DNA of 11,416 nt from Opitutaceae bacterium (GTDB lineage Bacteria; Verrucomicrobiota; Verrucomicrobiae; Opitutales; Opitutaceae): assembly GCA_031266495.1 (NCBI GenBank), contig JAISAX010000296.1, forward strand, positions 1 to 11,416. The letters are read 5' to 3'. A program made the translations under genes and the position numbers. Each line of letters opens with the position of its first letter. The first letter of the stretch is position 1. Below the pieces are notes generated by a model that was given only the letters and a program-made list of their open reading frames with translations, had not been told where the DNA came from and searched no databases. This document shows positions 7,833 to 10,349 of the stretch, in pieces.

Positions 7833-9650
7833 TTATCGACGGTCACGTCGCCGGACAATGGCGTATGCCAACAGCACTACACCCGCCAGCGCCGCGCACG
7901 TCGAGGGCTCGGGCACGGCGGCAAGCGCAATGTCGCCAATCCGGTATTCCCCTTCTTGCTCCAGCGGTGTCACCGTGTATGTGGAACCGGAGGCGTTGTA
8001 ACCGGGTAACGAATACTCCAGCCCCTTGCCGTCGCCCAGGAATGTTGCGCCGCCCGTAATCAGATCAAAGACATCGAGTACGGCTGTCCCGTCGCCGGCT
8101 CCGGCGGCGCCGGAGGCAATCTGCGCCAGCAGGTCGTTGCCCAGGTCCACGACGAATGTGTTGCCACCGGTCGTGGTCTTGATTTCCGGAGTGTTTTTCA
8201 CGGTGATTGCGTCGGAAAGGGTGGTCAGGGTCAGGTGGAGCGTTGCGCCGTCCAAGGTCAGGTGCTCGAGCACCGAGGCGCCCGTGCTTGTCCATGACGA
8301 GCCGTCAATGTCGAGGTCGAAGGCCACATCCCGGGCGTTGTCGCTGTTCACGCTGCCGGTGAGCGAACTTCCGTTCGCCAGCCGGATCGTGGCCTGCACC
8401 AAACCGCTCCCGGTCACGTCGCCGACAAGATGGCTGTTGCTGGCATTGATCGTCGCGCCCAACAAATAATCCCCATTCACGTGGATGGATTGCCGGCCCT
8501 CGACCCGCGCGTTGTCGATCGTGGCCGCATATCCGGTGGCAACGTCAACGGAGCGGGTCAGCAACAAGCCCGCGCCTTGCGTCGAGGTGTAGGCGCCGCC
8601 GTCCACATCCAGTTTATAAGGGTCCGTTTTGACCTCCGTCGAGGCGGTGGTGTTGTTGGCCATAAACAGCGCCGCCGCGCCCGCTCCGGTGACATTCACC
8701 CTGGTGTCCTGCCCGCCCACGCTAACGCTCGTGACGGACACGTTCGTGTTCCTCGAACCAACCCTGACGCCATGCGCATCGACGCCGGAAGTGGTGACGC
8801 GGACATCCGTGGCCGTCAGCACGCTCCCTGTTTCCGCCGACAGACCGAAGGCTCTCGCGCCATTGGTAACGATGTCCAGACCGGAAACCTCCGCCTTGGC
8901 GTTGCTCCCCAGGGAAACGCCATACGATACATCGCCATGAGTGGTGATCGACAGATCTTTCACCGTGCCCGTGGCATTAGTGATGAGAGAAACACCATGT
9001 GCATGGGTTGCTTCATTGAGGACAAAGATTTCCACCTTGCCACCGCTCATATCGAGGAATGCACCACTGCCCTCCGCCTGGACAGCGCGGCTCCTGCCGA
9101 CAGTTATTCCGGTGCCGGAAACGGTCGCGGTAACATTGGTATTGACCACCGTTATCGTGGCTCCGGCCCCCACGTAGATGCCGTTGCTGCCATCCGCCAC
9201 ATTCGTGATGATGTCCGACTCTTCCAAATACACATTCGACAGGGAGCCTGCCGCGTAAAGGCCATGCAATCCTGACGCAGTGCCCGATGTGCCGAGGTGG
9301 CTGTTGTCCAAACGGAGCGTCCCTCCGTCGGTCACGGTGACCGCCCTGCCTTTAGGCTCGTTGTTGGCGGCGGCGGAATTTCCCGTCAGCGTGAGGTGGG
9401 TCCCTTCATAAACGACGCCGTCCGCGACGCCGTTGCCCTTGATGTGCAGGGCGGAATAATCGCCGTCACCGGTGTATGCGGTGTCGCTTCCCGGCTGTAC
9501 GCCGGGGGTATCGACGTATTTGTACGTCTGCGCCACTACAAACGAGGGCGAGACGGCGAACAAAACCCCGGCGGCGACGGCGGCAAGGATTGCGAGCGAA
9601 GAGCGCCGGTTTTCGTACTGGTTTTTGTGTTTCATGGTACTGGATTTCAT
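7833..9650 (-). CDS. PEP-CTERM-sorted secreted beta-helix protein
   Basis: A 605-residue exported protein with no enzyme motif I can see. It has a basic N-terminus and a hydrophobic signal segment (about 18-40) ending SFVVAQ. A long low-complexity body (about 45-560) is rich in G, T, S, V, N and D, with recurring short turns such as GSNGIYVGAGATITVVNTNV, as in pertactin-like right-handed beta-helices. The end is the sorting signal VPEPST (579-584), a hydrophobic stretch and the basic tail RRRDRR. PEP-CTERM proteins are known to be processed by an exosortase and linked to extracellular matrix; no exosortase is in view. There is no autotransporter barrel. Two starts are possible, ATG at 9650 or at 9635, neither with a Shine-Dalgarno sequence. 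By eye its GC content looks lower than its neighbours', which may reflect its unusual amino acids or acquisition. Confidence 0.85.
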   Translation of the reverse strand: MKSSTMKHKNQYENRRSSLAILAAVAAGVLFAVSPSFVVAQTYKYVDTPGVQPGSDTAYTGDGDYSALHIKGNGVADGVVYEGTHLTLTGNSAAANNEPKGRAVTVTDGGTLRLDNSHLGTSGTASGLHGLYAAGSLSNVYLEESDIITNVADGSNGIYVGAGATITVVNTNVTATVSGTGITVGRSRAVQAEGSGAFLDMSGGKVEIFVLNEATHAHGVSLITNATGTVKDLSITTHGDVSYGVSLGSNAKAEVSGLDIVTNGARAFGLSAETGSVLTATDVRVTTSGVDAHGVRVGSRNTNVSVTSVSVGGQDTRVNVTGAGAAALFMANNTTASTEVKTDPYKLDVDGGAYTSTQGAGLLLTRSVDVATGYAATIDNARVEGRQSIHVNGDYLLGATINASNSHLVGDVTGSGLVQATIRLANGSSLTGSVNSDNARDVAFDLDIDGSSWTSTGASVLEHLTLDGATLHLTLTTLSDAITVKNTPEIKTTTGGNTFVVDLGNDLLAQIASGAAGAGDGTAVLDVFDLITGGATFLGDGKGLEYSLPGYNASGSTYTVTPLEQEGEYRIGDIALAAVPEPSTCAALAGVVLLAYAIVRRRDRR

Positions 9651-9840
9651 AATCTTGAGTTTCGTTGTCTGGTTTTTATTCGGTTTGTTTCGTATTTGTT
9701 TATCGATACGGGTGGAAAATCCGGCATGGCCGGAAAATGGATTGCGCGTTGCCGTCGGACGACAGGTGGGGGGGGAGGCGCACGACGGGAAGGAGAAAAC
9801 CCGACGATGTCACTTTATCGAGGCCGGAAAACCGGTGCAC
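9651..9840. other. Leader and promoter region of the PEP-CTERM gene
   Basis: No gene is supported. Next to the start, 9651-9712 is AT-rich and on the minus strand reads ataaacaaatacgaaacaaa and onward, a likely promoter or unstructured leader. A 6-bp hairpin tccggc-atg-gccgga lies at 9720-9734, and an 8-G tract at 9768-9775. Confidence 0.35.
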
Positions 9841-10009
9841 AAAAAAGGGACGCATCTACTAGCGTCCGTTATCGGGGCACCCAGGAGAGGCCCACCAGAA
9901 AAACGCTTTCAATGCGCCCCAACCGGGGCGGCATTTCGAACGCGATTTTCTGGTGCGGCACGTCTGACGAAATTTCCTGGGTTTCGATAACGAGAGCAGC
10001 CGAAGCTAC
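9841..10009 (-). ncRNA. Candidate structured RNA: UUCG hairpin, 126-nt compound hairpin, intrinsic terminator
   Basis: Read on the minus strand. First comes guagc-UUCG-gcugc (10009-9996), a hyperstable tetraloop hairpin. Next is a compound hairpin (9992-9867). Its stems are A 9867-9874/9985-9992 (8 bp), B 9879-9886/9975-9982 (8 bp), C 9893-9902/9946-9955 (10 bp), then short stems 9904-9906/9942-9944, 9908-9910/9938-9940, 9911-9915/9931-9935 and 9916-9920/9925-9929, capped by GGUU. That is about 42 pairs with a lopsided internal loop (19 versus 6 nt) between B and C. Finally ggacgc/gcgtcc (9867-9848) and a run of six U (9846-9841) form an intrinsic terminator. Position 9867 is shared by stem A and the terminator. 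Either a free small RNA of about 170 nt or an attenuator in the leader of the PEP-CTERM gene 190 nt downstream would fit. No convincing promoter was found. A 6S-like identity cannot be excluded. Confidence 0.6.
9848..9867 (-). terminator. Intrinsic terminator, minus strand
   Basis: A perfect 6-bp stem ggacgc/gcgtcc with an 8-nt loop is followed on the minus strand by C and six U. It directly follows the compound hairpin and lies 190 nt upstream of the PEP-CTERM start codon, so it ends or attenuates a transcript from further upstream on that strand. Confidence 0.65.
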
Positions 10010-10349
10010 GCAAAAATGGACTATGTGTGTGGACGGATGTTTTCCGGGTTGTAGTGAAAAGAAGGTTACATCGTATCGCGTTGCGCCAACTGGTGGCGGC
10101 GAAGAGAGAAGGAAGCGTTTGGTAGTTTTTGTGGCCGGGGTCAAGCCCGTGATTGAATTTGAATGCGTTCAGGTCGCATCTCGAAAACCGGCCAAGGGTT
10201 CGGCAGGGCGGCCAAGCCAGGCTCCCCCCCCCCCCCCCCTCTGCGTGCGCACTGGCCCGTCGCGCCACGACCGGCATCTGCAAAAATCGTCTTTAACCCC
10301 GCCCCGCCCCGCCCGAGAGTAAGGCACAGCCATCCACTGCATCGCACCC
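10010..10349. other. Upstream region of serine acetyltransferase, no gene seen
   Basis: Short open frames here lack family features and are not called. The stretch holds a 16-C tract (10224-10239) and a (ccccg) unit repeated three times (10297-10311). No clear sigma-70 promoter or Shine-Dalgarno sequence was found before the start at 10350. The promoter of the minus-strand RNA candidate should also lie here. Confidence 0.4.
10224..10239 (+). repeat. 16-C homopolymer upstream of serine acetyltransferase
   Basis: Sixteen consecutive C residues end 110 bp before the acetyltransferase start codon. Length variation here could alter promoter spacing if the promoter spans it, or it may be a sequencing-prone tract without function. 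Confidence 0.9.

Follow-up and report, generated by a model that had tools for sequence, protein, structure and literature searches.

The window, by which we mean the whole 11,416-nucleotide stretch of Opitutaceae DNA analysed, carries on its minus strand a structured element at about 9834-10016, followed on the same strand by a gene for a 605-amino-acid protein (7833-9650). Folding of minus strand 9830-10020 recovered a UUCG-capped hairpin, a compound hairpin and an intrinsic terminator at the positions that a first-pass annotation had given them, with a free energy of -84.4 kcal/mol in comparison to a shuffle mean of -59.7 (sd 4.0, z = -6.2; 0 of 200 shuffles as stable). The element borders were set by homology, most full-length relatives matching the query from about position 6 to about position 180 of 191 in the DNA search. 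The covariance model R1, built on the MAFFT alignment A1 of 39 copies (omitting the truncated L155 and L124, a longer variant), matches this one copy of the conserved leader RNA end to end (model positions 1-171) at 151.1 bits, the window copy itself being one of the 39. The downstream product has a signal-peptide-like start and a PEP-CTERM-like tail, both recognized by eye; the gene had been called a PEP-CTERM gene, and a secreted-type gene is indeed present, but the label itself found no Pfam or NCBIfam support (0 families). The gene lies downstream on the same strand as described, its called start at 9650 being 184 nt away.

From the 5' end on the minus strand, the UUCG-capped hairpin P0 (9996-10009), seen in the fold and with 95.7% of cells paired in A1, adjoins the closing stem P1, whose 5' strand occupies 9985-9992 and whose 3' strand occupies 9867-9874. 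The S1 hairpin (CGAA...UUCG; 9968-9986), of which the outer two bases overlap P1, presents in its loop the 5' strand of helix P2 (9975-9982), as placed by the alignment and the kissing analysis described below. It is followed by the long P3/P4 hairpin (9893-9955), found by folding, and by the S3 hairpin (GGGC...GCCC; 9875-9893), the loop of which presents the P2 3' strand (9879-9886), forming 8 bp with 9975-9982. The intrinsic terminator stem-loop (9848-9867), supported by both fold and alignment, is succeeded by a C and a six-T tract, TTTTTT, read directly at 9841-9846. As the first-pass annotation had stated, the P1 3' strand and the terminator have exactly one base in common, 9867. Beyond the T-tract, the sequence GCACC (9834-9838) could pair over 5 bp with GGTGC at 9877-9881.

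We found that the element belongs to a widely distributed family. At E ≤ 0.01, R1 matched 43 of 252 genomes in the family of Geminisphaera TAV2, 47 of 335 genomes in a class sample and 35 of 337 in a phylum sample, samples that overlap and counts that include weak matches, with up to 8 dispersed matches per genome; at the same threshold, a query with the element DNA matched 31 of 200 family genomes. In a second phylum, that of a Balneolia genome, R1 matched 6 of 148 genomes, and a broader model, R2, matched 10 of 178 genomes of this phylum and 21 of 149 of one class; R1 scores outside Verrucomicrobiota were 30-58 bits. A third phylum, that of a Lachnospiraceae genome, gave R1 matches in 0 of 149 genomes, a set that holds no known positive and is uninformative alone. 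The TAV2 genome carries a full-length homologue (L081) with 80% identity, whose surroundings resemble those of the window only in a G run. The window also contains cysE, whose product is 87% identical to its counterpart in Geminisphaera colitermitum TAV2, pointing to a relative of TAV2 as its source; the element is absent from 68 cysE-anchored loci (L001-L068), and the cysE neighbourhood of the window copy is therefore incidental. One query of plasmid and phage collections returned zero matches. A search of viral contigs with one exact 18-base pattern returned a single virus-like IMG/VR contig (L295), in which an element copy at 2646-2810 lies 70 nt ahead of an N6_N4_Mtase gene, which suggests that the leader can travel along with its cargo gene.

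For gene context, 144 distinct R1 matches were reduced to 138 copies by omitting two at contig ends (L229 and L231), the truncated L155, a second match in L251 that is the same as L256, and two weak opposite-strand matches (L239 and L120). The set favours the stronger matches of the family, class and phylum samples, most of the weaker ones having been left out, and its copies are not phylogenetically independent. The duplicates L289 and L292 were omitted from A4, and the corresponding pair from A5, with proteins there trimmed to 360 amino acids.

Compensatory evolution supports the proposed structure, in line with what a test of the stems among homologs had been expected to reveal if the first-pass reading was right. 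Across A1, the form comprising P0, P1, P2, P4 and S1 is paired in 95.2% of cells and has 136 double-change cells; shuffles give 37.8, none of 500 reaching the observed count, and sliding the partners yields no more than 31. P1, P4, the long-range helix P2 and the terminator all show compensatory changes: in A1, changes on both sides were seen in 6 of 9 P1 pairs, 4 of 9 P4 pairs, 5 of 8 P2 pairs and 3 of 8 pairs of the terminator stem, which is 93.6% paired. The terminator and P1 have A1 columns 163 and 165-167 in common, and both covary. In L128 and L154, P2 is largely replaced, with ACCGCUAA pairing with UUAGCGGU. The model-fitted alignments A2 (99 distinct rows) and A6 (27 rows of divergent copies, including one weak opposite-strand row, L315) concur with A1, P0 and the terminator pairing in only about 80% in A6. 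Copies from the second phylum adopt this fold as well. A conserved structured domain, as is characteristic of riboswitches, is thus common to unrelated genes and lineages.

The first-pass annotation had described a "lopsided" internal loop; the inner helix there is better interpreted as pairing over a long range, probably between kissing loops. P2 has S1 on one side and S3 on the other, and it therefore probably joins the loops of the two hairpins as kissing loops. In A6, S3 is formed by GGYA and URCC on either side of the P2 3' strand, varies at its third pair (CG 10, UA 10, GC 2, AU 1, UG 1) and has 17 double-change cells compared with 4.4 in shuffles. The R2 model does not contain the S3 helix and pairs two of the S3 5' columns (194 and 195) elsewhere, and the fourth S3 pair has column 207 in common with P2. 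S1 is paired in 94% of A1 cells and is nearly invariant, and its support comes from single compensatory cases in the kissing analysis; it is the least certain helix of the element. The mean kissing score was 16.2 over 138 copies and 16.1 over 26 copies, compared with 10.1 and 10.2 in dinucleotide shuffles, for a score that optimises stems and kiss jointly, that 53-56% of shuffles also bring to 13, and whose search selected other hairpins in several rows (for example, L138, L233 and L301). A second, automatic test, which often misplaced P2 (taking P1 in the window), gave a mean for S1 of 3.37 over 164 copies, above all 200 permutations (maximum 2.97), and of 2.92 in 38 divergent copies, below the permutation maximum of 3.03. 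For S3, the mean equalled that of the best permutation (4.21), and the value for divergent copies (4.34) was below the maximum of 4.42; S3 therefore rests on the covariation in A6.

We then consider the position of the element relative to genes, which were called around the 138 copies with our own script, four copies having no downstream call and four no upstream call. The next downstream gene was co-oriented with the element in 129 of 134 cases, as opposed to 86 of 134 for the upstream gene (Fisher 1e-11), with a median gap of 67 nt between element and gene for the 125 genes within 700 nt. By position, the element occupies the 5' leader of the gene that it would regulate; co-orientation and short gaps are expected of a cis leader and not of a free small RNA. 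No sigma-70 -10 box was found at a fixed upstream distance in 102 copies, and the transcript 5' end is putative. The roughly 50 bases upstream of most copies (10017-10066 in the window) are poor in G and rich in A and C across 102 copies, a composition that we take to be reminiscent of Rho loading sites.

The largest known target class of the element is restriction-modification and related genes, beside secreted proteins. By our own labels, assigned from BLAST clusters with Pfam or PADLOC scans of representatives, 51 of 125 downstream genes encode restriction-modification or other defence functions, and in a re-check each of the 9 labelled proteins scanned proved to have a restriction, methylase or PLD-SNF2 domain, although PADLOC gave no match for L147 at 1e-20. 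The first 360 amino acids of 122 downstream proteins gave Pfam matches to N6_N4_Mtase (20), ResIII (10), TSP3_bac (10), PLDc_2 (7), SNF2 (6) and N6_Mtase (4), whereas among 131 upstream proteins no family exceeded 3 occurrences and N6_N4_Mtase was seen in no more than one. PADLOC methylase models matched up to 21 of the 122 downstream proteins; upstream, no model was found in more than 1 of 131, although a few of these genes themselves encode methylases or restriction enzymes. Single scans identified type I (L238), Eco57I-type (L236), C5 methylase (L237 and L139), ISP (L134 and L250), EcoRI-type methylase (L291), HmaB (L223), DUF499 (L243) and ResIII (L137, L147, L150 and L218) genes, together with PLD-SNF2 helicases. 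In a test for retrons, no reverse transcriptase was found among the 25 listed of 65 downstream and the 25 listed of 168 upstream Pfam families.

The non-defence targets, to which the window gene belongs, include many secreted proteins (TSP3-repeat, Ig-like and PEP-CTERM) and some glycosyltransferases or acyltransferases, and a good share of them match no known family. In the second phylum, 14 of 25 copies stand ahead of a signal-peptide- or lipoprotein-like gene start, judged by eye and in some cases not at the first start. With restriction-modification and related genes as the largest target class, the link to PEP-CTERM that the window had suggested is incidental. Methylase genes are not all led by the element: PF01555 has 141 matches, spread over 70 of 160 Opitutaceae genomes, of which 11 lie behind an element, three of them a few kb on (coordinates compared by hand). 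One Opitutaceae genome, G153, has 15 N6_N4_Mtase matches and yet is absent among the element-bearing genomes listed.

The leaders fall into two forms that differ in a further helix, P5, which we defined as a GUGCC motif ahead of the terminator pairing over at least 7 bp with sequence just past it. Of the 119 copies that have GUGCC and sufficient room, 65 can form P5, compared with 11.8% when the downstream stretch is shuffled. P5 also has compensatory variants, for example CGUGCCUG with CAGGCACG. It occurred in 44 of 47 defence leaders and in 19 of 63 others (110 copies; Fisher 4e-12), and it leaves the terminator hairpin intact. The window copy, with its 5 bp below this threshold, represents the other form. 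A hairpin of at least 7 bp at the start codon was found in 33 of 63 P5-bearing copies and 19 of 62 others, a suggestive enrichment that could reflect a possible translational layer. Within about 110 nt past the element, defence-type leaders (L237, L238, L239 and others) often share a second conserved segment around GCCAUCCCGACAGGGCUGA, as well as a hairpin that extends to the start codon. In the divergent L287, L290, L291 and L293, the last hairpin has a Shine-Dalgarno-like AAAGGAAG, AAAGGGAG or GGAGG, and an ATG comes directly afterwards within the T-tract, an arrangement that would suit a translational platform.

In most copies, P1 and the terminator have bases in common, which gives two mutually exclusive helices, one of them an intrinsic terminator, as riboswitches and attenuators do. 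Folds with full P1 enforced were less stable than folds with the terminator enforced in 35 of 39 copies, with a mean difference of 5.3 kcal/mol over all 39, and more stable in 3 (L119, L143 and L149), with one tie; termination is therefore the likely default state. Inner P1 and the terminator coexist in 3 of 4 folds inspected (the window, L134 and L138, not L119), which limits the mutual exclusion to the outer pairs of P1. Outer P1 is weakened by a changed base in the window copy, where P1 and the terminator fit one fold; this copy may be weakened as a switch or biased to termination.

Collectively, these findings are best read as an undescribed, conserved cis leader RNA of the attenuator or riboswitch type. 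More specifically, we propose, with a probability of roughly three in four, that the element is a cis-acting, riboswitch-like transcription attenuator at the 5' end of the downstream mRNA. In this model, RNA polymerase would first produce an aptamer-like domain consisting of P0, P1, S1 and S3 with their loops paired through P2, and P3/P4, the 3' strand of P1 overlapping the 5' strand of the terminator. Without a signal, the terminator would win and the default would be off; a signal, either a small molecule or an RNA-binding factor, would stabilise the domain together with outer P1, thereby blocking the terminator and turning the operon on. In defence leaders, P5 could enclose the terminator in a further helix, and the hairpin that roughly half of the P5-bearing leaders have just ahead of the start codon may add a translational layer. 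We infer the kissing geometry, the switching itself, its direction and the existence of a ligand or factor from the sequences.

The nature of the signal divides this reading into two narrower ones. It is possible, though we would put it somewhat short of an even chance, that the element is a small-ligand riboswitch whose kissing-loop domain binds a metabolite or second messenger directly. The compact domain, long-range loop pairing, conserved unpaired positions and platform overlapping P1 are consistent with this, as is the use of one domain with varied platforms (terminator, start-codon hairpin, and Shine-Dalgarno sequence in the last hairpin), but the targets, which include restriction-modification genes, glycosyltransferases and secreted proteins, have no obvious common pathway. 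Such a diverse regulon would fit a global trans factor, and a binding site for a dedicated RNA-binding protein or antitermination factor is a more doubtful candidate than direct ligand binding, without being far behind it. Against the form of this proposal that invokes a NusG paralogue, 15 element-rich genomes had one NusG-domain gene in 8 cases, none in 2, two in 3 and three in 2, and 15 genomes with no listed match had two in 10, one in 3 and three in 2. Co-occurrence thus does not support a NusG paralogue (LoaP, RfaH or UpxY) as the trans factor, 10 of the 15 element-rich genomes having no second NusG-domain match.

A free small regulatory or 6S-like RNA with its own terminator, one of the two possibilities raised in the first-pass annotation, appears improbable. 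Its length of about 170 nt, its terminator-ended form and the single fold that accommodates P1 and the terminator in the window would suit such an RNA, and 6S RNA shares with the element a long hairpin and a size of about 180 nt; however, the co-orientation with the next gene in 129 of 134 cases, the short gaps, the extra helix reaching past the terminator and the several copies in many genomes are at odds with it. The likeness to 6S that had been remarked on was not upheld, no match to RF00013 being obtained at the gathering threshold or in E-value mode, and 6S RNA was rejected as an identity for a multi-copy cis leader with a median gap of 67 nt. We regard a dispersed mobile or palindromic repeat (REP- or MITE-like) with no regulatory role as very improbable: the up to 8 matches per genome are dispersed and the surroundings of L081 are alike only in the G run, but the copies occur as leaders in fixed orientation and at a fixed distance to genes, with a bias in target class, compensatory helix evolution and zero matches in plasmid and phage collections (one query).

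The element was also compared with known RNAs. Rfam gave no family for the element at gathering thresholds (the window and 14 + 12 further loci), including no T-box match at these loci, or in E-value mode (the window, 5 further loci and one copy). The initial proposal of an undescribed structured RNA acting as a leader with a terminator is thus supported. Sensitive Rfam searches listed for the window only MIR1858, a microRNA model, at E = 8, and for one copy MIR7486, ncr1241 and c-di-GMP-II-GCG, all far under threshold; the last, the sole riboswitch model listed at that copy, lay on the opposite strand with 15.7 bits against a threshold of 47.9.

In the adenine (pbuE-type) riboswitch, P1 and an intrinsic terminator form in competition, contacts between loops stabilise the domain and the default state is off. 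The element is probably similar in all three respects, but it differs in having several helices around P1, a long P3/P4 arm, no Rfam match, and restriction-modification and secreted targets. The lysine riboswitch has kissing loops in a multi-helix junction and a leader with a terminator; the element probably resembles it in these features, whereas the helices differ and there is no Rfam match. In LoaP, RfaH and UpxY antitermination with RNA elements, a leader RNA likewise stands ahead of surface operons; in contrast, the element displays no correlation with NusG paralogues, and its terminator overlaps the RNA domain itself. To our knowledge, RNA leaders are hardly known for restriction-modification systems. 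Among the titles and abstracts of the matches listed, a scope that ends before subscription journals and preprints, we found no description of the element, and terms for Verrucomicrobia and for restriction are absent from the main texts of three RNA-discovery papers (PMC7266159, PMC11109978 and PMC8632094). The orphan riboswitch candidates in the parts of these papers covered likewise combine a structured leader and an expression platform with a ligand that is still sought.

How bacteria hold restriction-modification-like systems off until needed is poorly understood. Type I, II, IIG, III, ISP and Hma-type genes all follow copies of the leader described here, as do genes for secreted proteins, so that one assay for the read-through signal would define a common regulon. 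The element adds a new RNA family that probably has a kissing-loop architecture and in which the question of a ligand can be put to the test. It is present in TAV2 and in genome G006, very probably Opitutaceae TAV5, which has copies at 5561300-5561467 and 7313175-7313344. A broader proposal, which we regard as unlikely on balance, is a cross-phylum riboswitch-like class that would place restriction-modification and related defence systems, together with the secreted or surface proteins first encountered by phages, under the control of a single intracellular signal, such as a second messenger induced by phage or by envelope stress.

Between the element and cysE, positions 10224-10239 of the window are 16 consecutive C (G on the minus strand), and G/C runs of 17-20 matching it are also found in the TAV2 loci L001 and L081; the run in the window is possibly phase-variable or assembly-related.
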